Shown here: positions 5,679 through 37,757 of the stretch, piece after piece
Layout: each line of letters opens with the position of its first letter
Numbering within the stretch: position 1 is the stretch's first letter
Virus record (IMG/VR): IMGVR_UViG_3300028558_000053
Coordinates: 1 to 40,502 of that record
Length of the DNA: 40,502 bases
Reading direction: 5' to 3' (one strand)
Source of the DNA: a virus
The notes under the pieces: generated by a model
Seen by the model: only the letters and a program-made list of their open reading frames with translations
What the model was told of the DNA's origin: nothing
Database searches by the model: none
Translations under genes and position numbers: made by a program

Positions 5679-5984
5679 ATGCAGCTTCGCGCTCTGGATC
5701 AAATCCACATCAGTTCGGTCAAGCCCGACACCATTCGTCCGGGCGAGGCCTTCGAGGTCAGCGACTCCGCGGGCGAGGATTTACTGAAGAAACACCCGAC
5801 CAAATTCGCGCGAGTTGATGCCGAGTTGCCGGCCGAAAATCTCGCAAACCAGAAGAAGGTCGGTGATGACGCGGTTCTGGCTTCGCAGAAATCGGAGTCC
5901 ACTCCGAAGAACAAAGCTGAGCCTCAGCCATCGAACAAGACCGACAAGGACCAGAAAACCAAGGACGACAAGTCGTCGTCCTGA
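5679..5984 (+). CDS. Small head-region protein with lysine-rich tail
   Basis: Not recognised as a named family. The 101-residue protein has a short folded-looking N-terminal part (residues 1-50, including ISSVKPDTIRPGEAFEVSD). Its C-terminal half is disordered and very rich in K, D, S and Q. The Shine-Dalgarno AGGAG is strong. It sits between the capsid gene and the connector genes, where many siphoviruses encode small head-decoration or DNA-associated proteins. A structural role is inferred from position alone. Confidence 0.7.
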   Translation: MQLRALDQIHISSVKPDTIRPGEAFEVSDSAGEDLLKKHPTKFARVDAELPAENLANQKKVGDDAVLASQKSESTPKNKAEPQPSNKTDKDQKTKDDKSSS

Positions 5985-6017
5985 CCAATCTGCGCACCGC
6001 GCTAAAGGAGAGCTACC

Positions 6018-6392
6018 ATGCGACGTTACAAGGTTCCGGTCACCACAGCAGCTGACGGCTCTGCGACCGCATACACCCCGCGCATCGCGGGCAAGCTGCA
6101 TAGCATCCAGTATGTGAAGGATGGCTCCAACGGCTTCGCCGATGGCGTTGACTTTACCATCACCGCCGAGGTGACGGGCGAAAGCGTTCTCGCGAAGTCG
6201 GACGTGAATGCCTCCGCCGTGTTCTATCCGCGCGCGCCAACGCACTCGCAAGTGGGTGCGGCAAACCTCTATGCGTCGGGCGGCACTGCCGTCTCGGACA
6301 AGATCGGACTGGCGAGCGACCGGATCAAGATCGTTGTCGCTTCCGGCGGTAACGCCAAGGTTGGCGTTTTCCATGTCTTGGTTGACGAATAA
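6018..6392 (+). CDS. Small head-region protein, beta-rich
   Basis: Not recognised as a characterised family. The 124 residues are beta-rich without membrane segments: MRRYKVPVTTAADGSATAYT, then alternating short strands, ending in KVGVFHVLVDE. A clear GGAG Shine-Dalgarno precedes the ATG. Its place between capsid and head-tail connector genes suggests a virion component such as a capsid decoration protein, but nothing in the sequence proves this. Confidence 0.72.
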   Translation: MRRYKVPVTTAADGSATAYTPRIAGKLHSIQYVKDGSNGFADGVDFTITAEVTGESVLAKSDVNASAVFYPRAPTHSQVGAANLYASGGTAVSDKIGLASDRIKIVVASGGNAKVGVFHVLVDE

Positions 6393-6394
6393 GC

Positions 6395-7024
6395 ATGCAT
6401 CTCGTCCTGGTCACCGCTCCGGTCGAGGAACCGATTGAGGCTTCCGACGTCAAGTCGCGCCTCAATATCGGCTCCGAAGTTCCGGACGAAGTCATCGAGG
6501 CTTTCATCACTGCCGCCCGGCAGACGATCGACGGCCGCGATGGCTGGCTGGGACGAGCCATCATGCGGCAGTCATGGAAAATCGTCGCAAGCGAATTTCC
6601 ATTCTGTCCGATCGATATTCCGCTGCCTCCGCTCATCTCGGTCGATGCCATCAGGTACATCGACAACGCTGGCATTGAGCAAGTGCTCATCGAAACGACG
6701 GATTACGTTGTCACGGAAGGTCGTCGTGCGACGGTCATGCCCGCTTACGGCAAGTCGTGGCCGAATACGCGATGCCAACCGGGCGCGGTCGAGATCGAAT
6801 TCACTTGCGGGTACGAGAGCCCTGACGATGTACCGGAGCCGATGAAGTCAGCCATCACGCTGATGGTGAGTAACTTGCGCTCGCTTACGGCGCAAAATCT
6901 GTTCCTCAGCCAGGATACGGTCGAAGGCGTCGGTTCGAAGCAATACATCGTCGGCGGCAACGCTGGCGCGGCGGTTGACAGCGCTGTTTCGTCGCTGTTG
7001 TCGACCTATCGAGAATTTCGATGA
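6395..7024 (+). CDS. Head-tail connector protein, gp6/gp8-like
   Basis: This 209-residue protein resembles the adaptor proteins that bind under the portal ring. Its opening, LVTAPVEEPIEASDVKSRL, followed by EVIEAFITAARQTIDGRDGWLGRAIMRQSWKI, is typical of the phage gp6-like / CHP02215 connector family, in which an alpha-helical first domain is followed by a beta-rich second half with VEIEFTCGYE. It begins 3 bases after the previous stop and overlaps the next gene by ATGA, so it is part of the head-to-tail assembly block. Confidence 0.82.
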   Translation: MHLVLVTAPVEEPIEASDVKSRLNIGSEVPDEVIEAFITAARQTIDGRDGWLGRAIMRQSWKIVASEFPFCPIDIPLPPLISVDAIRYIDNAGIEQVLIETTDYVVTEGRRATVMPAYGKSWPNTRCQPGAVEIEFTCGYESPDDVPEPMKSAITLMVSNLRSLTAQNLFLSQDTVEGVGSKQYIVGGNAGAAVDSAVSSLLSTYREFR

Positions 7025-7377: not shown

Positions 7378-7826
7378 GCGCCGACGATCTATCGGCCGTA
7401 TGGACCGCCATCAAGGCGCGCGCCGCGGCAGAAATCACCGGCCTGCCGATCTTCTGGCCGCGTGAGCCGAACGAGATGCCGGATACGCCGGCGCCATTCG
7501 TCTATTTCGAACTGATCGTCGACAAGGCCGGTGCACCAGTGTCCTACGGCGGCGGACGAGGGCGAAATACCTACCGCAACGGCGCAGAACTCAATGGCTA
7601 CGTCTTCGTGCCGCGCAATTACACCGTCGAAGCCGAGGCTGCTCTTTCCGAGCGCGTCGCCGCGGCGTTTCGAAGCTACCGCTCCGACGTAATTTCCTGT
7701 TTCGACGCCACGCCGATGCTGGTCGGCAATGGCTCTGACCTTGTTCCTGCCGGCTTCGAATCTGCCGCCGACCAGTACGAGTGCACGGTCGTCGCCATCG
7801 ACCTGTTTTTTGACCAGATCGGCTGA
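7374..7826 (+). CDS. Probable tail terminator / neck protein
   Basis: The 150 residues have the alpha-beta pattern of small tail-terminator proteins: an N-terminal helix (LSAVWTAIKARAAAEI), the target-entry loop with PAPFVYFELIVD, a central helix (VEAEAALSERVAAAFRSY) and a C-terminal beta strand TVVAIDLFFDQIG. Such proteins cap the tail tube and bind the head. Position directly before the tail tube gene agrees. The start overlaps the previous gene as ATGA. Confidence 0.7.
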   Translation: MSADDLSAVWTAIKARAAAEITGLPIFWPREPNEMPDTPAPFVYFELIVDKAGAPVSYGGGRGRNTYRNGAELNGYVFVPRNYTVEAEAALSERVAAAFRSYRSDVISCFDATPMLVGNGSDLVPAGFESAADQYECTVVAIDLFFDQIG

Positions 7827-7858
7827 TCGCCGAAATCCTTCCATCACGGAGAACTGCA

Positions 7859-9109
7859 ATGCCCCTCGCTGAAGGCGTCTCTGCGCGCATTTCGTACAAG
7901 AAGTATGCCTCCGGCGTCATTGCCGCGAACACTGAACCCGATGCGGCAACCGATCCCGGTGCGTCTGGTGGTCAGATCCTGCGCCGCGTGTCTTCGACGC
8001 TGAAGTTGGCGAAGGACACCTATCAGTCGAACGAAATCCGTTCTGATCGTCAGATCGCGGATTTCCGGCACGGCACCCGTCGCGTTACTGGCTCGGTCAC
8101 TGGCGAATTGAGCCCGCTGACCTATGCCGATCTCTTCGAGGCTGCATGCCGAGGCACATGGGAAGCGGCAGTCTCGCTGTCGGAAACCGAACTGACCAGC
8201 GTGGCGGCTGATGCCGACGCAGCGACCCTGACGTTCGCTGGCGGTGATCCGGTGGCTCTCGGCCTGCGGGTCGGCCACGTCATTCGATTGACGGATACGT
8301 CGGCGGCAACGGATTCCGGGCTGAACTTCGTCATCCTCGGCTTCTCCGACTCCAGCAATCGCACGGTTGAGGTTTACCCGCCGCCGCCGGCGGATATGAG
8401 CGCTGATACGGATTTCACACTCGCCACGATCGGCAAGCGCCTGAGCGTTCCGTCGAGCGGCCATGTCAGCCGTAAGTTCGCCTTCGAAATCTACAACGAA
8501 GACATCGACGTTGCGCGCTTGTTCACGGAATGCCGCGTCGGCGGCTTCACGATGCAGTTGCCGGCCTCCGGCATGTCCACCATCGAGTTTCCGGTGATGG
8601 GCCGCAACATGCAGCTTTTGGAAGATGCGGCGGCTCCGTTCTTTACCTCGCCGGTGTCCGAAACGACGACCGGCATCTTTGCGGCTGTGAACGGACTGGT
8701 CCGCGTCAATGGCGTCAACCAGGGTGTGGTCACCGGCATCAACATTCAGATGGACCTCAGTCCGTCGTCGGATCCTGTGGTCGGCCAGAACTTCATCCCT
8801 GAAGTCTTCCTCGGCCGCGCCAACGTGACCGGCCAGATGACGGCGTTCTTCCAGGATGGCGATCTGGTCAACGCCTTCACCGACGAAGATGAGATTTCGG
8901 TCCTTCTCTACCTGACGACCGAGAGTGATCCGGCCACGCCGGCCATGACCATCCTCCTGCCGCGCATCAAGTTTTCGGATGCTGACGTCGCGACGTCGGG
9001 CGAGGGCGGTCAGAGCGTGACCTTGCCGTTCCAGGCGCTCAAGGGAGTTGGTGCGGCGGGTGTCGACGCGACCACGATCCAGATCGTGGATACCCAGATC
9101 GCCGCCTAA
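7859..9109 (+). CDS. Tail tube (major tail) protein
   Basis: This 416-residue beta-rich protein is the best candidate for the stacked-ring tail tube subunit. Its first third includes LRRVSSTLKLAKDTYQSNEI, DFRHGTRRVTGSVTGELS and a YADLFEAACRG helix, as in tail-tube proteins of proteobacterial siphoviruses. It repeats similar elements in its second half (EFPVMGRNMQL, RANVTGQMTAFFQDG), suggesting two related tube-like domains. ACGGAG lies upstream of the ATG. The next gene is the frameshifted tail chaperone, the usual successor of the tube gene. Confidence 0.78.
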   Translation: MPLAEGVSARISYKKYASGVIAANTEPDAATDPGASGGQILRRVSSTLKLAKDTYQSNEIRSDRQIADFRHGTRRVTGSVTGELSPLTYADLFEAACRGTWEAAVSLSETELTSVAADADAATLTFAGGDPVALGLRVGHVIRLTDTSAATDSGLNFVILGFSDSSNRTVEVYPPPPADMSADTDFTLATIGKRLSVPSSGHVSRKFAFEIYNEDIDVARLFTECRVGGFTMQLPASGMSTIEFPVMGRNMQLLEDAAAPFFTSPVSETTTGIFAAVNGLVRVNGVNQGVVTGINIQMDLSPSSDPVVGQNFIPEVFLGRANVTGQMTAFFQDGDLVNAFTDEDEISVLLYLTTESDPATPAMTILLPRIKFSDADVATSGEGGQSVTLPFQALKGVGAAGVDATTIQIVDTQIAA

Positions 9110-28683: not shown

Positions 28684-28877
28684 GCCGTGCAGCCGCAATG
28701 TTTCTGTGCGCACGCATTGCGCCGCATCTCACCGCCAGTCCGATCAATTCACAGTTCCGCGCTGACCGTGACGTTGCAACGTCGATGACGGGCGGCAAGG
28801 GGACCGAACCGGAGCGTGAGTTGCCGCGCTCCGGTTCGGAACATCCCGCGATCCTTCGGCACGGGAGGGCATCGTGA
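28680..28877 (+). CDS. Hypothetical small protein
   Basis: The 65-residue frame MSRAAAMFLCARIAPHLTAS is coupled to the previous gene (ATGA). Composition is low in structure and rich in R, S and T. It is supported mainly by tight packing between two better genes. It could be non-functional spacer coding. Confidence 0.45.
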   Translation: MSRAAAMFLCARIAPHLTASPINSQFRADRDVATSMTGGKGTEPERELPRSGSEHPAILRHGRAS

Positions 28878-29407
28878 AGCAATCCAAGCGCATGTCGCTG
28901 ATCGAAACCTGCCTGAACACGGGCGCAGGCTTCGGCATTTCGTTGTTGGCGCAGTGGTACTTCCTACCGTTGCTCGGGGTCACGATCTCTTTCCATCAGA
29001 ATTTTCTGTTCGCGATCATCATGACTGTGGTGTCGATCTGTCGCGGCTTCATCCTGCGTCGCGTTTTCGAGGCGCTGCAGATCCGCGTTTCGATGCCAGC
29101 CTCAATCCTCGCGATCGCCGCCGAACGCCGGCGCCAGATCGATGTGGAGGGTTGGACGGCTGAGCATGATGACGAACATGAACCCGGCATCATCGGCATT
29201 GCCGGCGCGGCTTATGCCATGGCGGCGCGCTACCGCTATCAGGGCGTTCAGCAGATCAATCCTCCTGGCTGCTGGCCGTGGTCCAACGATTGGTGGAAGC
29301 CACAAGACAACCGACGCGACTTGGTCCGCGCCGGCGCGCTGATCGCAGCCGAACTCGACAGGATGGACCGTGACCGCAAGCGCAAGCACAACGTGGTGCG
29401 GGCATGA
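28874..29407 (+). CDS. DUF7220-like membrane domain fused to a small helical domain
   Basis: The 177-residue protein starts with MKQSKRMSLIETCLNTGAGF and two membrane spans (about 14-33 and 40-58), typical of DUF7220-like phage proteins. The C-terminal part, from about 78, is ERRRQIDVEGWTAEHDD and WPWSNDWWKPQDNRRDLVRA, a domain often found as a separate phage protein. Here the two are joined in one frame. GGGAGG precedes the GTG start. Confidence 0.66.
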   Translation: MKQSKRMSLIETCLNTGAGFGISLLAQWYFLPLLGVTISFHQNFLFAIIMTVVSICRGFILRRVFEALQIRVSMPASILAIAAERRRQIDVEGWTAEHDDEHEPGIIGIAGAAYAMAARYRYQGVQQINPPGCWPWSNDWWKPQDNRRDLVRAGALIAAELDRMDRDRKRKHNVVRA

Positions 29408-30776: not shown

Positions 30777-32155
30777 TGAGCGAACTCGTTCAAATCGAGC
30801 CGTCGGCAGAACTGGCGCTTTACGATCAGGCCTGCCGTTTGCTGGCCGAGGCCAAGGCCGTCGACGAAGTCAAGGAAGTCCTCAACCAAGCCGAGGCGAT
30901 CAAGGCCTATGCCCGGCAGGCCGAGAACCGGACCCTTGAAGCCGACGCGCTGGAAATCCGGTTCCGAGCCGAGCGGCGGCTTGGCGAGATGATCCTGTCA
31001 CAAAAGGAAACGGTCGGCCTGCATAAGGGCGGCCGTCCTTCGGAAAAAACCCGTTCCGAAAAGGAACAGGTTTTGGAGCCGCCGCCGATCAAGCTCCAGG
31101 AGGTCGGTATCTCGCGCAAGCTGTCGTCGCATGCGCAGAAGATGGCTTCCGTTCCACAGGAGAAGTTCGAGGCCTCGCTCGCGACCTTCCGGGATGAGGT
31201 TGCTTCGGCCAAGGGCCGGATGACCACGGACCTCCTGAAGGTTGGTGCCGAGGAAGAACAACGGCGGGCACGGCGCGATCTGGCACAGGCGCTCTCCGAC
31301 AAGGCTGCGGAAATCACCGGCACCCGGAAATACCCGGCGATCTACTTCGATCCGCCATGGAAGCGAAAGCAGGGCCTAACCGACCGCTCCTACGAGAATC
31401 ATTATCCGACGATGACGTGGGACGACATCGTCGCATGGGCGCGTCAGATGGCACCACTGCTGCTCGACGATGCATGGGGCTTCATGTGGGTGCCGCGCGC
31501 GCACATGCTGGCGCTTCATCGCACTGTTATTGAAGCTGAGATCGTCGAGACCGGCGAGATCGTCAAGGCATGGGTCAGGATGCCGCTCGCGTGGGCGATC
31601 GCTGAGGCAATGGGCTTCGATCAGTACTCGACCGCCTATGTCTGGACCAAGACCGACGAAGAATTCCCGGACGATATCGGTGCCGGCATTCTCGTTCGCG
31701 ACCAGGACGAAATCCTCCTGATGTTCAAGAAGGGCCGGGGCCTGCCGAAGCCGCGCACCTTCGAGGTCGCGAACTCCAATCATCGGGAACGGTCAAAGCC
31801 GCTCGGCCACTCCCGCAAGCCGCAGCACTATCGCGACATGATCGCGCGCATGACCGGCGGTGTCCCTGTGCTGGAATGCTTCGCGCGCCATGATGAGAAT
31901 TTCCCGCTGCCGCCGAATTGGGACGCGTGGGGCAACCAGGCACAGCCGTCGCAGCCTGAAAGCGGCATCCAGTTCGAGGTTGTCGATGCGCCTGCCGAGC
32001 AGGATGAGATTCCACCCGGCGCGACGATCGACCTGCCGGACGATTTCAGGATCGATGTGCCCGCGCCGCAACCACTTCCAGCGCGCGCCGATGATGGGCT
32101 TGATATTCCGGCATTCCTGCGGCGGGCGCCTGCACGGCAGGAGGCGGCGGAATGA
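30776..32155 (+). CDS. MT-A70 family N6-adenine methyltransferase
   Basis: The 459-residue protein has an N-terminal helical part (ELALYDQACRLLAEAKAVDE) like that of ParB/Noc-associated phage proteins and a C-terminal MT-A70 domain with the catalytic DPPW at 192-195 (AIYFDPPWKRK). SAM-binding elements include LLLDDAWGFMWVP and VLECFARHDENFP. The ATG at 30776 overlaps the previous stop (TGATGA), and a GTG three bases earlier is possible. It may methylate phage DNA to evade restriction. Confidence 0.88.
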   Translation: MSELVQIEPSAELALYDQACRLLAEAKAVDEVKEVLNQAEAIKAYARQAENRTLEADALEIRFRAERRLGEMILSQKETVGLHKGGRPSEKTRSEKEQVLEPPPIKLQEVGISRKLSSHAQKMASVPQEKFEASLATFRDEVASAKGRMTTDLLKVGAEEEQRRARRDLAQALSDKAAEITGTRKYPAIYFDPPWKRKQGLTDRSYENHYPTMTWDDIVAWARQMAPLLLDDAWGFMWVPRAHMLALHRTVIEAEIVETGEIVKAWVRMPLAWAIAEAMGFDQYSTAYVWTKTDEEFPDDIGAGILVRDQDEILLMFKKGRGLPKPRTFEVANSNHRERSKPLGHSRKPQHYRDMIARMTGGVPVLECFARHDENFPLPPNWDAWGNQAQPSQPESGIQFEVVDAPAEQDEIPPGATIDLPDDFRIDVPAPQPLPARADDGLDIPAFLRRAPARQEAAE

Positions 32156-34266
32156 GCGTCGCCTTGCGCGAACTGATCGTTGACAATTTCGCGGGCGGCG
32201 GCGGCGCATCGACTGGCATCGAGATGGCACTGGGACGCTCTCCCGACATCGCCATCAATCACGATCCGGTCGCGCTGGCCATGCATCAAGCGAACCATCC
32301 CGAAACGCTGCATCTGTGCAACAGCGTATGGAAGGTCGATCCCGACGAAATCAAGGGACCGATCGGGCTTGGCTGGTTCTCGCCGGATTGCAAGCATTTC
32401 TCCAAGGCAAAGGGCGGTCGCCCCGTCGAGAAGGGCATTCGCGATCTTGCCTGGGTGGTCGTTCGCTGGGCCATGCGCCGAGAAGGTGGGCCGCGCGTCA
32501 TCATCCTCGAAAACGTCGAGGAATTCCGGACGTGGGGACCGATCGGCGGTGACGGCAAACCCTGTCCCGAGCGCAAAGGCGAAACCTTTCGGCAGTGGAT
32601 TCGTGAACTCAAGCGTCATGGCTACAAGGCTATTGAATATCGCGAACTGCGCGCGTGCGACTTCGGCGCGCCGACGATCCGCAAGAGATTGTTCCTGATC
32701 GCACGTCGTGATGGCAAGCCGATCGTCTGGCCAAAGCCGACGCATGCGCCCGCCGAGGTTAATGCGGACGGCATCGTGACCAAATGGGCGAAGGGCCACG
32801 GGCTGACGCTGAAAGACCTTCAGGATATGCGCCCGTGGCGCACCGCCGCCGAGATCATAGACTGGTCGTTGCCATGCCCTTCGATCTTCGCCACCTCCGT
32901 CGAGATCATGGGCGAGCATGGCCTGCGCGCCGTGCGGCCGCTGAAACCTGCAACACTGGCGCGGATCGCGAAGGGCGTTCACCGTTATGTCCTTGCGGCA
33001 GCCAACCCCTTCATCGTCAGCCTGACACATCAGGGTGGTGAGCGCACAGAGGCGGTCACCGATCCGATGATGACCGTCACAGGCGCGAACCGCGGGGAGA
33101 AGGCCGTCGTTATTCCGACGTTGGTGCAGACGGGTTACGGCGAGCGGCCCGGCCAGTCGCCACGCGTTCCGGGTCTCGACAAGCCCCTCGGCACGGCTGT
33201 GGCGGGTGGCGTCAAGCATGCGCTCGTGACACCAATCATCGCCGGCGTCGGCGGGCGAATGGGCCAGACTGAACCTCGTTCGGGCGATGTGCCTTTGCAG
33301 ACCCTGACAGCGAAGGCGGATTCAGTCGTGCTGACGCCGCTGCTAGCACGCACTGCGCATGGCGAGGTCGATAGGAACGGGAAGAGGCGGGGCAAGGGAG
33401 CTCACAGTCTCGAAGAACCGTTCTCGACCGTGCTGGCATCGCCGGATCATGCGGTGATCGCGCCGCATCTGACAAAGTTCCGCGCCAACAGCGTCGGCAG
33501 CGGGATGGATGAACCCGTGCCAACGGTCACGGCGAATAGCTACATCAAGAAGCCGGGCGGAGCCGCGCCGATCGGCGTCGTCGCTCCGCACCTGATGACA
33601 ATGCGCAGTGCGCAGAAGCCCTTCAATGGCGCTGACGAGCCGACGCATACGATCACCGCTGGTGGCGCGCATCTCGTTCGCCAGTTCGGGACGGCTGTCG
33701 GTTCATCGCTCGATGATCCTGCCAAGACGGTGATGGCCGATGGTGGCGGCGGAAAATCGCAACTCGCGGCATCGTTCCTGACGAAATACTACGGCGTTCA
33801 CCAAGACTCCGGCATCGATGAGCCTGTTCATACCGCAACCTCGAAACCTCGGTTCGGGCTTGTCGAGATTATGGCCGCAATGCCGCCGTTCGGACCCGAG
33901 CATTACGAACGCGCGCGGGCGGTCGCCGATCTGCTGCGCGAGCATGGTCTTTGGGATGATCGCGAGTTTGTGACGTTCGATCTGCACGGCGTCACCGTGG
34001 TGCTGACGGACATCGGTATGCGCATGCTGGTGCCGCGCGAGTTGTTCCGCGCGCAGGGATTTCCCGAGACCTACGAAATCGAGACGGGCGTCTTTCCGGT
34101 CGAGCGCGAGGCCGAGGGCGCGCGCTGGACCGAACACGAGCGGCGTCCGATCAGCAAGACCGACCAGGTTGCCAAATGCGGCAACAGTGTTTCGCCGCCG
34201 ATGGCGTGCGCGCTTGTCGCGGCGAATTGCGGCGACATGGCCGAGATCGCGGAGGCCGCCGAATGA
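32152..34266 (+). CDS. DNA cytosine-5 methyltransferase with repeat-rich recognition region
   Basis: The 704 residues show C5-methyltransferase motif I (FAGGGGASTGIE, 13-24), catalytic C80 in SPDCKHFSKAKG, motif VI ENV (120-122), motif VIII RKRLFLIAR and a C-terminal part with GNSVSPPMA. Between about 285 and 560 lies an expanded recognition region with eight similar units around D-x-P-x-x-T, including VTDPMMTVTG, MDEPVPTVTA, ADEPTHTITA and IDEPVHTATS. The length is well above that of a simple C5-methyltransferase because of these repeats. Confidence 0.92.
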   Translation: MSVALRELIVDNFAGGGGASTGIEMALGRSPDIAINHDPVALAMHQANHPETLHLCNSVWKVDPDEIKGPIGLGWFSPDCKHFSKAKGGRPVEKGIRDLAWVVVRWAMRREGGPRVIILENVEEFRTWGPIGGDGKPCPERKGETFRQWIRELKRHGYKAIEYRELRACDFGAPTIRKRLFLIARRDGKPIVWPKPTHAPAEVNADGIVTKWAKGHGLTLKDLQDMRPWRTAAEIIDWSLPCPSIFATSVEIMGEHGLRAVRPLKPATLARIAKGVHRYVLAAANPFIVSLTHQGGERTEAVTDPMMTVTGANRGEKAVVIPTLVQTGYGERPGQSPRVPGLDKPLGTAVAGGVKHALVTPIIAGVGGRMGQTEPRSGDVPLQTLTAKADSVVLTPLLARTAHGEVDRNGKRRGKGAHSLEEPFSTVLASPDHAVIAPHLTKFRANSVGSGMDEPVPTVTANSYIKKPGGAAPIGVVAPHLMTMRSAQKPFNGADEPTHTITAGGAHLVRQFGTAVGSSLDDPAKTVMADGGGGKSQLAASFLTKYYGVHQDSGIDEPVHTATSKPRFGLVEIMAAMPPFGPEHYERARAVADLLREHGLWDDREFVTFDLHGVTVVLTDIGMRMLVPRELFRAQGFPETYEIETGVFPVEREAEGARWTEHERRPISKTDQVAKCGNSVSPPMACALVAANCGDMAEIAEAAE

Positions 34267-34493: not shown

Positions 34494-35414
34494 ATGAACA
34501 AGCAGACGACGATTGCCGCGGCATCCGCCGCAGCGCTCCTGACGAAGACCGATCCTAATTCACCCGCATTCTCCATTGCCATTTCCGGCGATATCGAGAT
34601 CAAGCCTGGCACAGCGTTTCTGGGCCACACGTATGATGGCAGTGAAGTCATTCGTTTCCCGGAGGCTATCCGCACCCCCGGCGCCGACTACGCCATCGTG
34701 GCGCTGGATGACGGCAGGCTGGAGATCGCCCGCCATACGTTGCCGGGCATTCCGAACAATGCGCTCGGCGGCTTCCATTATGCGCCGGGCGGCATCGCCG
34801 TTGAACGCTGCGGCGGCGACAGTGTGCCCGCGATCAATCCTTACTCGCTGTGGGATCGCAACTTCCGCCCGGCCTGCGCCGACCCGCGCGGCATGGCGCT
34901 GATCGAGCGTACCTATGGTCGCAAATTCTGGTGCGATATCTATCTGCTCGGCCAGAACCATCTTGCCAATGGCACCAGCAGGTTCGGCGTGACGATCGCC
35001 GACGGCAACGATCAGCCGACAAATCCCGCGACGGGCAAGTCGTTCGAGAATCTGGATTACGAAACCGCCGTCGCGGTGATGGCGCATCACGGCAAGCAGC
35101 TTCTCTCGTTCTCTGAGTTTGCCGCCGCGACCTGCGGGGTGACGGAGAAGTCGGCGGCCAAGGACGATCCGGAGAAGACCGGCCTCGATGCGGCGCGCAC
35201 CAGCAAGTTCGGCATCATGCAGGCGACCGGCAACATGTGGGTCTGGGGCCATGACGGCGATCCGGACGAGCCGCGAGCGTCGTTGTTTGGCGGGAGCTGG
35301 TGGAACGACGGCGACGCGGGCTCGCGCTACGCGTACGTCGCCTACTACTGGCCGGGCCTCTCGGGCGGCCGTCTGGGCGCTCGGGGCCGCAGTGATCACC
35401 TGCAACTTGCATAG
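34494..35414 (+). CDS. DGR target: variable C-type lectin / FGE-like protein
   Basis: The 306-residue protein ends in a C-type-lectin fold of the formylglycine-generating-enzyme type used by DGR variable proteins: GKQLLSFSEFAAATCGVTEK (about 207), QATGNMWVWGHDG, and then GGSWWNDGDAGSR, YYWPGLSGGRLGARGRSDHL and the stop. The first 100 residues look like a beta-sandwich attachment or stalk domain. Binding residues would be the varied codons in the last 41 residues. GGAGG lies upstream of the ATG. It could be displayed on the virion or act in the cell. Its early-operon location is unusual for a receptor-binding protein. Confidence 0.85.
   Translation: MNKQTTIAAASAAALLTKTDPNSPAFSIAISGDIEIKPGTAFLGHTYDGSEVIRFPEAIRTPGADYAIVALDDGRLEIARHTLPGIPNNALGGFHYAPGGIAVERCGGDSVPAINPYSLWDRNFRPACADPRGMALIERTYGRKFWCDIYLLGQNHLANGTSRFGVTIADGNDQPTNPATGKSFENLDYETAVAVMAHHGKQLLSFSEFAAATCGVTEKSAAKDDPEKTGLDAARTSKFGIMQATGNMWVWGHDGDPDEPRASLFGGSWWNDGDAGSRYAYVAYYWPGLSGGRLGARGRSDHLQLA
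35289..35411 (+). other. DGR variable region (VR)
   Basis: Codons for residues 266-306 show the mark of adenine-directed mutagenesis. Positions 279, 281, 283, 284, 289, 291 and 292 read TAC, TAC, GCC, TAC, CTC, GGC and GGC, the set derived from AAC template codons. Framework positions (GGSW, AGSR, YWPG, GARGRSDHL) match other DGR variable domains. Few adenines remain in the varied part. No second copy that could be the template repeat was found in the window. Confidence 0.78.
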
Positions 35415-35433
35415 GCGCTGCGGCAGCAGCGCC
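35414..35433 (+). other. DGR hairpin / cruciform after VR
   Basis: GGCGCTGC and GCAGCGCC form a perfect 8-bp stem with a GGCA loop. It begins at the last base of the target stop codon. DGR target sites such as that of BPP-1 carry a similar inverted repeat with a short G-R-N-A tetraloop just downstream of VR, needed for efficient homing. GGCA fits this loop pattern. Confidence 0.78.
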
Positions 35434-35446
35434 GCGTGAACCCGCG

Positions 35447-35875
35447 ATGATCGTCAGGGATGAAAATTCTGCAACCGACGCCTTGGCGATTGTCGAGCGA
35501 TACGAGGCCTTCGTGACCTATCTCTATCCGATCCTTCAGACCAGTCCGCGCAAGCACGGCGTCTTCCGTGATGTCGTGCTGGCGCAACTGTTCTCGCCGA
35601 TCGGAGGGCTTTATCACGCGGCCAAGTCTCGCCAGGTGTCGCGGCTGCATGCCGTCGATGCCGAGTTCGCGACGTTGCGTTCGCACATGCGTTTCATGGT
35701 CCGCTCGACCGTAAGGATCATCACGCCGCACCCCGACATCTCCGGCGATCTTCTCCACGCCACCTGCTGCGGACCGGAAAGGGAATCCTACGTCAACCTT
35801 GAAACCGGGGAGCCGCTGAAAGACGGCGAGCCGATTCCCAAGCCCTTTAAATTCCGGGCGCGGGATTTCCGATGA
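35447..35875 (+). CDS. avd: Avd, DGR accessory variability determinant
   Basis: The 142-residue protein starts with a four-helix-bundle pattern typical of Avd: IVERYEAFVTYLYPILQTSP, KHGVFRDVVLAQLFSPIGGL and DAEFATLRSHMRFM. Avd binds the DGR reverse transcriptase and template RNA and is required for mutagenic homing. A 30-residue C-terminal extension (LETGEPLKDGEPIPKPFKFR) is longer than in short Avd proteins. The gene lies just after the VR hairpin and overlaps the RT by 4 bp (ATGA), the tight spacing of a DGR cassette. Confidence 0.82.
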   Translation: MIVRDENSATDALAIVERYEAFVTYLYPILQTSPRKHGVFRDVVLAQLFSPIGGLYHAAKSRQVSRLHAVDAEFATLRSHMRFMVRSTVRIITPHPDISGDLLHATCCGPERESYVNLETGEPLKDGEPIPKPFKFRARDFR

Positions 35876-36876
35876 CCCGCCGCTATCGCAACCTGATCGG
35901 CCGCATCACCGATCCGCGCACCATGGAAGCGGCGCTGCGGCTTACGGCGGCAGGCAAGCGGCTGACGCCCGGCTTTCTCGAATTCAAGGAATTCGGTCCG
36001 CTGAACCTGCAGCTTCTCGCCCGCGAGATGCGGGACGGGAGCTATCGTCCAGGCGAGCCGCGCGAGTTCTATGTGTTCGATCCAAAGCGGCGGCTGATCT
36101 CTGCGCTGCCGTTTCGCGACCGTGTCGCGCAGCAGGCATTGTGCCTGGTGATCGCGCCGATCTTCGACCGCGCGATGCTGCCGCGTGCCTTCGCCAGCCG
36201 TCCCGGCAAGGGAACGCATGCCGCCGCCGCACTGCTGCAGAGTGAGTTGCGCCAGCGGGTACGGCGCGGGCAGGCGACGTGGTTTCTCAAAACGGACTTC
36301 TCGGCCTATTTCGCATCGATCCAGCGTGATGTGCTGTGGCGGCTAATCGAGGCGAAAATCTCCTGCCGCGCTACGCTGGGGCTGATCGAAAGCATTTTGC
36401 CGCGCGAGGGCATCGGCCTGCCGATCGGCAACCTGACATCGCAGATCTTCGCCAACGTCTACACCGGCGCCACACTCGACCGGCATTTGCAGCAGACGCT
36501 CGGCGAAAAGTCCTGGTATCGCTACATGGACGATCTGGTGGTGCTGGGCGATGACCGGGCGCATCTGGAGCAGGTGAAGGCCAGCATCGAGGAATTCTCG
36601 CGCCGCGAGCTGGGCCTGCGGTTCTCAAAATGGCAGATCTCGCCAGCCGCGCGCGGCATCAACTTCCTCGGCTATCGGATATGGGCCAGCCACAAGCTGT
36701 TGCGGCGTGACAGCGTCACCCGTGCGCGCCGCAAGATCGCGGCCTATCGCGCCGGCGGCGAAATCCGGCGGTTACAGAAATTCCTCGCTGCGTGGCTCGG
36801 CCACGCCTGCCATGCCGACAGCCGCAACCTTGTGCGGAGCCTTGGCCTTTTGCCGATCGAGCGGAGGCGAGGATGA
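35872..36876 (+). CDS. DGR-type reverse transcriptase
   Basis: The 334-residue RT copies the DGR template RNA with adenine-specific errors. The palm motifs are present: KTDFSAYFASI (140-150, first catalytic Asp), the DGR-characteristic LPIGNLTSQIFANVY (183-197) and YMDDLVVLGD (218-227, catalytic pair). A thumb-like C-terminal part follows (FLGYRIWASHKLLRRD). The IGNLTSQ motif sets it apart from group II intron and retron RTs. Both ends overlap neighbours by 4 bp, which leaves no room for a template repeat on either side. Confidence 0.92.
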   Translation: MTRRYRNLIGRITDPRTMEAALRLTAAGKRLTPGFLEFKEFGPLNLQLLAREMRDGSYRPGEPREFYVFDPKRRLISALPFRDRVAQQALCLVIAPIFDRAMLPRAFASRPGKGTHAAAALLQSELRQRVRRGQATWFLKTDFSAYFASIQRDVLWRLIEAKISCRATLGLIESILPREGIGLPIGNLTSQIFANVYTGATLDRHLQQTLGEKSWYRYMDDLVVLGDDRAHLEQVKASIEEFSRRELGLRFSKWQISPAARGINFLGYRIWASHKLLRRDSVTRARRKIAAYRAGGEIRRLQKFLAAWLGHACHADSRNLVRSLGLLPIERRRG

Positions 36877-37757
36877 ATGCGCCCACGCGCCCGGTTCTTC
36901 GATGGCATGGCGGCAAGTGGCTGCTTGCACCGTGGATCATCTCGCATTTCCCGGCGCATCGCATTTATGTCGAGCCGTTCGGCGGCGCGGCCAGCGTGTT
37001 GCTGCGAAAGCAACGCGCCTATGCCGAGGTTTACAACGATCTCGACGATGACGTGGTGAACCTGTTTCGCTGCCTGCAGGATCCATTGAAATCCGCGCGG
37101 CTTCGCGAACTGTTGGTGCTGACGCCGTTCGCCAGGCGGGAATTTGAGATTGCGTGGGATCAGTCCGACGATCCCGTCGAGACGGCACGGCGGCTGATCA
37201 TTCGCGCCTTCATGGGCTTCGGCTCTAACGCCCATAGCCCGCTCGGGCGCGGTCACAAGACGACCGGCTTCCGGGCCAATTCATCGAGGTCGGGCACCAC
37301 GCCCGCCTACGACTGGTCGCACTATCCCGATTGCCTCGATGCCATCATCGAGCGGCTGCGGGGCGTCATCATCGAGCATCGCGACGCTGTGCAAGTGATG
37401 AAATCGCATGACGGGGGGGGCACGCTCCACTATGTCGATCCTCCTTATGTTGCCTCAACGCGCTCGCCGGCGAACAAATACGATCTGAAACACCGGATGT
37501 ACCGGCACGAACTGTCAGATGCCGATCATGTCGAGCTTTTGGCTGGCCTTCGCGAACTAAGCGGAATGGTGGTGCTGTCCGGCTATCCGCATCCGCTTTA
37601 CGACGATGCCTTGCACGATTGGCGGCGCATCGAGCGTCCGGCATTGGCCGATGGTGCGCGCCCGCGCACCGAAGTGATCTGGGTCAATCCCGCATGCGCG
37701 ACCGCACTCAGCCGGGTGCATGGCCGTCAGCTCACCTTGCTTGAGGCGGCATCATGA
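36873..37757 (+). CDS. Dam-type (D12) N6-adenine methyltransferase
   Basis: The 294-residue enzyme shows D12-class motifs: LRWHGGKWLLAPWI (9-22) and VEPFGGAASVLL (33-44) for SAM binding, and catalytic DPPY at 189-192 (LHYVDPPYVAS). GGAGG lies 5 bases before the ATG, and the start overlaps the RT stop. It is the third methyltransferase of the early operon and would mark adenines, possibly GATC-like, on phage DNA. Confidence 0.92.
   Translation: MNAPTRPVLRWHGGKWLLAPWIISHFPAHRIYVEPFGGAASVLLRKQRAYAEVYNDLDDDVVNLFRCLQDPLKSARLRELLVLTPFARREFEIAWDQSDDPVETARRLIIRAFMGFGSNAHSPLGRGHKTTGFRANSSRSGTTPAYDWSHYPDCLDAIIERLRGVIIEHRDAVQVMKSHDGGGTLHYVDPPYVASTRSPANKYDLKHRMYRHELSDADHVELLAGLRELSGMVVLSGYPHPLYDDALHDWRRIERPALADGARPRTEVIWVNPACATALSRVHGRQLTLLEAAS

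Follow-up and report, generated by a model that had tools for sequence, protein, structure and literature searches.

Organization of the DGR cassette

The analyzed window (a virus record of 40,502 bases, taken at its full length) carries a cassette, at positions 35289-36876, that is very probably a recently disabled diversity-generating retroelement (DGR) of the BPP-1 type, in which a deletion running from the avd gene into another phage gene, referred to here as gene X, has left the virus with a frozen tail protein. As a result, the virus can most likely no longer diversify on its own. The order of the ORFs in the window, with the terminase genes at the left end, the integrase gene in the middle and an HNH-like ORF at the right end, suggests that it represents a nearly whole phage genome, devoid of flanking host DNA. 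All of the genes and motifs of the cassette described below are located on the + strand.

The target gene of the DGR (34494-35414) encodes an Mtd-like tail protein of 306 aa with the variable repeat (VR) at its 3′ end. The protein has the Mtd domain architecture with a C-terminal VR (PF21916, mtd_2nd, E 1.5e-5; phrog_11262, tail protein, E 7.9e-80) and shares 41-67% identity with the targets of related DGRs. The VR (35271-35411; approximate boundaries) ends with an IMH-like sequence, GGGGCCGCAGTGATCACCTGCAACTTGC (35384-35411), a motif common to the VR 3′ ends of the relatives. The stop codon of the target gene runs into a hairpin (35414-35433), GGCGCTGC-GGCA-GCAGCGCC, composed of an 8-bp stem and a GRNA loop, which conforms to the consensus known for BPP-1-type targets (PMC3240598). 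An identical hairpin is present in one related locus (L064), and similar ones occur in other relatives. The target, VR, IMH and downstream GRNA hairpin of a DGR are therefore all found in the window.

The avd ORF (35447-35875) is followed by the reverse transcriptase (RT) gene (35872-36876), the start of which overlaps the avd stop by 4 bp. The RT is of full length, with intact IGNLTSQ and YMDD motifs, and it belongs to the DGR clade with a YxDD and an IGxxTSQ-type motif, as shown by its phrog match (phrog_1423, E 2.4e-110), alignment and placement in the tree. The end of the RT gene is in turn overlapped by 4 bp by the start of a gene for a Dam-type DNA adenine methylase (36873-37757; PF02086, E 1.3e-18), a neighbor that is not a DGR component; the same RT-dam order was found in two other loci (L058 and L190). 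On the other side, the DGR is flanked by a gene for a C5-cytosine methylase (32152-34266), and several relatives (L014, L018, L031 and L032) encode a related C5 methylase in the vicinity of the DGR.

These results, obtained from the sequence and from Pfam and phrog matches, bear out the first-pass annotation of this DNA with respect to the VR at the target end, the GRNA-type hairpin, the IGNLTSQ/YMDD RT and the 4-bp overlap of avd and RT. Its description of a complete-looking cassette without a template repeat (TR) holds for the absence of the TR, but not for the completeness, as the Avd C-terminus and the spacer are also gone (see below). Judging by these components, the cassette is a genuine BPP-1-type DGR in origin.

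The template repeat is absent from the window

The same annotation had noted no second copy of the VR, and had proposed that the VR be aligned with the whole window and with host genomes, allowing for differences at adenines. The alignment with the window revealed no TR on either strand: an ungapped, adenine-tolerant scan of both strands gave a best score of 15.2, while shuffled controls reached up to 16.4, so the result is at the level of chance. A profile built from 71 related TRs had a sole match in the 40.5 kb, at 35186-35427, which corresponds to the VR (E 1.5e-54; the next best match had an E value of 0.23). With the same profile, at least two copies were detected in nearly all relatives with enough flanking sequence. 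A DNA search within the record likewise recovered the VR alone. The 40.5-kb record therefore holds no repeat near-identical to the VR save for adenines, and the TR is truly absent from the window. The possibility of a diverged TR hidden in the window, which had also been raised, is ruled out by the adenine-tolerant scan, which did not exceed its shuffled controls, and by the TR profile, which matched only the VR.

The VR itself bears the footprint of earlier adenine mutagenesis. Set against the consensus of the related TRs, the VR departs from it at 10 of the 19 conserved A positions, compared with 4 of the 82 non-A positions that are conserved (Fisher p 3.3e-6), and it is this concentration of differences at the adenines that identifies the past mutagenesis. 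The target gene shows no sign of relaxed selection, i.e. no excess of private substitutions and no acceleration relative to its relatives.

Comparison with related DGRs

Searches were performed with the RT, the target and Avd, and the loci detected were fetched from viral contigs and bacterial genomes. Deduplication left a set of 82 RT loci, one of which is the window. In 74 of them, the TR is paired with a VR; the order is target-avd-TR-spacer-RT, and the TR always lies between avd and the RT gene. In most of these loci the TR/VR mismatches are confined to adenines or include one to a few others. Four further loci (L051, L066, L098 and L117) contain a TR-like match, but the sequence fetched for them did not include a VR, owing to the end of the contig in three cases, and in two (L058 and L131) the contig starts too near to the RT gene for the TR to be judged. 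Only two loci lack the TR: the window and L129.

The distance from the avd stop to the RT gene is 218-882 bp in the TR-bearing loci, compared with -4 in the window. Downstream (3′) of the TR, the relatives share a conserved spacer, with the core GGTGGTCAGCCCG...CTTCGGCGAACAC...GGTCCGGCAGAGCGGGGCGTAG...GAGACCCGCGGCCGGC. A model of this spacer matched 122 fetched loci; the window and L129 were unmatched, and the structured spacer RNA found between the TR and the RT gene of a DGR is missing from the window. The strong conservation of the TR-RT spacer, seen at 11406-11657 of L018 and at the same place in other relatives, suggests that a covariance model of the template RNA of DGRs could be built on it, by which DGRs might be found independently of their TRs.

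The closest parallel among well-known systems is the DGR of Bordetella phage BPP-1 (mtd-avd-TR-brt), which shares with the window an Mtd-like target with a C-terminal VR, a GRNA hairpin following the VR, and the succession of avd and RT; both the RT and Avd residues 1-95 of the window are homologous to their BPP-1 counterparts. Unlike the window, BPP-1 has a TR and a spacer between avd and brt, as well as a full Avd. An alphaproteobacterial prophage DGR carried by a MAG of Afipia sp. 64-13 (L031) resembles the window in gene order and in its target (67% identity), RT (77%) and the N-terminal part of Avd (69%), but it retains the TR, the spacer and an Avd of full length; two small cargo ORFs separate its spacer from the RT gene, and the second of these overlaps the RT start by 4 bp. 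Another relative (L048) has an ORF of 102 residues between the TR and the RT gene. In L058, the RT of which is 78% identical to that of the window, the end of a methylase-like gene overlaps the RT start by 4 bp and dam lies downstream. Neither a TR nor a spacer was detected in the 7.4 kb fetched for this locus, whose contig begins 397 bp upstream of the RT gene. As to a possible TR-less ancestry shared by L058 and the window, the node joining the two has a tree support of 0.08 (14 sequences).

The second locus without a TR, L129 (IMGVR_UViG_3300047497_000260; 5830-6732), encodes a 300-residue fusion, in which Avd residues 1-98 continue in frame into the RT from about residue 68. It contains no TR and no spacer, and its 67-kb record yielded no target. 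As in the window, the TR and the spacer have been deleted, in frame and from nearly the same Avd position; the two differ in that the L129 deletion extends into the RT gene, with the loss of the residues before about 67, whereas the RT of the window is of full length. The L129 deletion is an independent event of the same kind.

Two other loci have features worth recording. L051 (8001-9920) contains avd, the TR and the RT gene, with no VR-bearing target in the 8 kb fetched upstream; its avd follows a tape-measure-like frame, and the target may be remote. In L032 (10001-11053) the RT match spans 1053 bp, which is longer than those of the relatives, and the genome search returned this RT in two pieces (residues 1-130 and 128-329), so that an internal insertion seems to be present.

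The avd gene of the window is chimeric

Although avd had been taken to be intact, detailed inspection revealed a chimera. Homology to Avd (bAvd, PF22296, E 2.3e-14) is confined to residues 1-95/96, encoded at 35447-35734 and comprising helices 1-3; the sequence aligns with BPP-1 Avd (4dwl) only as far as chain residue 106 of 131, compared with residue 131 for the relative L018. The conserved C-terminal helix of the relatives (consensus QH..AL.LLAEPG.MLGAW..KL) is missing, and the window does not encode a complete four-helix-bundle Avd. According to the alignments and the survey of gap lengths, the junction lies at 35735, where the relatives carry the C-terminal helix of Avd, the TR and the spacer (about 390-1000 bp).

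The remainder of the ORF (35735-35875; Avd residues 97-142, DISGDLLHATCCGPERESYVNLETGEPLKDGEPIPKPF...) is an in-frame foreign tail that corresponds to the C-terminal 46 residues of an unrelated family of phage proteins (phrog_34459). The same tail is found at the end of a MazG-like protein in L056 (7953-8138) and, by sequence, also in L099 (10082-10258), and of another protein in L006 (8143-8316), with 55-70% identity to that of the window. In these three proteins the tail opens with a CxxC pair (CxxC..HxxCC tail), the CxxC half of which is missing in the window. Since both fused pieces are incomplete, one lacking Avd helix 4 and the other the CxxC half, the chimera points to a deletion scar rather than to a working fusion. 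The gene X tail had no match in the phage collection, the exact junction of avd and tail is absent from the other viral contigs searched, and the Avd-X chimera was not seen elsewhere in the related loci and contigs searched. The L006 protein with the tail resembling that fused to avd is encoded at 7756-8319, and an ORF of the window located at 28874-29407 resembles (by eye) its N-terminal part, without the tail.

Structure prediction offers weak evidence in either direction. When AlphaFold was run with the family alignment, a fourth helix was predicted over the foreign tail (pLDDT about 55-68); with an alignment that does not impose helix 4, three helices were left and the fourth was gone.

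The RT and the remaining part of Avd show no sign of decay

None of the 87 sites conserved across the 81 other sequences is substituted in the RT of the window, and Avd residues 8-94 have no substitutions at 15 conserved sites; no acceleration was detected in either. In neither the RT nor the remaining part of Avd was there an excess of private substitutions or of substitutions at conserved sites that would indicate relaxed selection. In the tree, the RT nests deep among TR-bearing relatives, and the absence of the TR is therefore a derived trait. As the RT and the remaining part of Avd show no sign of decay, the loss was probably recent; this is the simplest reading of their undecayed state, with which continued use would also be consistent.

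Proposed origin of the cassette and alternative explanations

We propose that the ancestor of this DGR had the order target(VR)-hairpin-avd-TR-spacer-RT that is usual for the BPP-1 type, and that an additional phage gene (gene X), encoding the CxxC..HxxCC tail at its end, stood between the spacer and the RT gene, its stop overlapping the RT start. We infer this position of gene X, because no record with it in that place was found: gene X was in no case located directly upstream of a DGR RT gene, and its tails were detected only in L006, L056, L099 and L133. Genes between the TR or spacer and the RT gene nevertheless have precedents in the cargo genes of L031 and L048 and in the methylase-like gene end of L058. 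A single in-frame deletion, extending from a point after avd codon 95 to a point within gene X, would then have eliminated the entire TR and the spacer RNA, together with the C-terminal Avd helix and the first part of gene X, leaving an in-frame Avd-X chimera still coupled to the RT gene. The loss of the TR during evolution, one of the options considered in the first-pass annotation, is thus strongly supported by the comparison with the relatives; its mechanism is ordinary decay.

In BPP-1, cDNA synthesis is primed by the folded spacer that separates the TR from brt; this spacer also recruits the complex of RT and Avd, and synthesis is halted by a motif at the avd 3′ end (PMC12875486). All of these elements map within the stretch that is missing from the window, and the proposed deletion would have removed the RNA segment responsible for both recruitment and priming. 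When the BPP-1 system was reconstituted, inactivation of the RT, Avd or the TR reduced repair down to about 1e-9 (PMC12875486); of these three required components, two are missing or broken in the window. Since the template RNA is absent and Avd is broken, retrohoming in cis would not occur, and the tail protein would keep the last VR that it received.

The first-pass annotation favored another explanation, namely that a working RT and Avd use a borrowed TR. This is not supported, and it is unlikely given the broken Avd and the missing spacer. The search for a donor in host genomes covered about 790 sampled host-related genomes around an Afipia MAG (392 of its family and 397 of its order) and revealed no donor TR: the long matches to the VR were 71-79% identical and represented VRs or TRs of related DGRs, and the rest were short chance matches. 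In a variant of this idea that we regard as improbable, the DGR is non-autonomous, having kept a receptive VR, IMH and hairpin (and the RT), while a co-resident complete DGR prophage supplies the TR RNA and Avd in trans. The good preservation of the VR, IMH and hairpin and the undecayed RT would be consistent with such an arrangement, as would the ability of the BPP-1 parts to function from separate plasmids (PMC12875486) and the occurrence of complete related DGRs in several of the genomes sampled from one bacterial family. However, the closest of the 71 TRs of relatives differs from the VR by 11 non-adenine mismatches and 3 gap positions, the long genome matches are as divergent as stated above, and no sign of co-residence was seen.

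There is likewise only a slight chance that the cassette is an assembly artefact, in which avd, the end of gene X and the RT gene are misjoined in the contig, the real virus possessing a TR. The window is a virus-collection record, and its junction was not recovered from the other viral contigs. On the other hand, the reading frame is maintained across the chimeric ORF, whose stop is coupled to the RT gene by the 4-bp overlap, no long shared word is visible at the junction between avd and the relatives of gene X, and L129 has a comparable junction. Loss of the TR in assembly by the collapse of the VR and TR, as had been suggested earlier, does not fit, since avd, which lies between the VR and the position of the TR, has been retained. 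We find it extremely improbable that the Avd-X chimera and the RT have been repurposed as a new, TR-independent module with some other task, such as defense. The open frames are in step and the conserved sites of the RT are unchanged, but the two fused pieces are each truncated, the RT is an ordinary DGR RT nested within the DGR clade, and no second example of the chimera came to light in the loci and contigs searched. A deletion that disabled the DGR is therefore the reading that we retain.

Implications for DGR evolution and annotation

On this reading, the window shows how a DGR may be switched off: one deletion would take the template, the spacer and the Avd C-terminus, and leave a receptor-binding protein whose VR, diversified earlier, has become fixed. 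L129, as a second, independent case with nearly the same Avd breakpoint, suggests that such loss recurs. No description of TR-less DGR remnants was found in the literature searched, which was covered in part. At least one large DGR survey demanded an imperfect repeat near the RT gene (PMC8144416), so that template-less remnants would have been missed in it. Such remnants may therefore be under-reported. For annotation, the finding means that an adjoining intact RT gene, avd and VR are insufficient to call a DGR functional.
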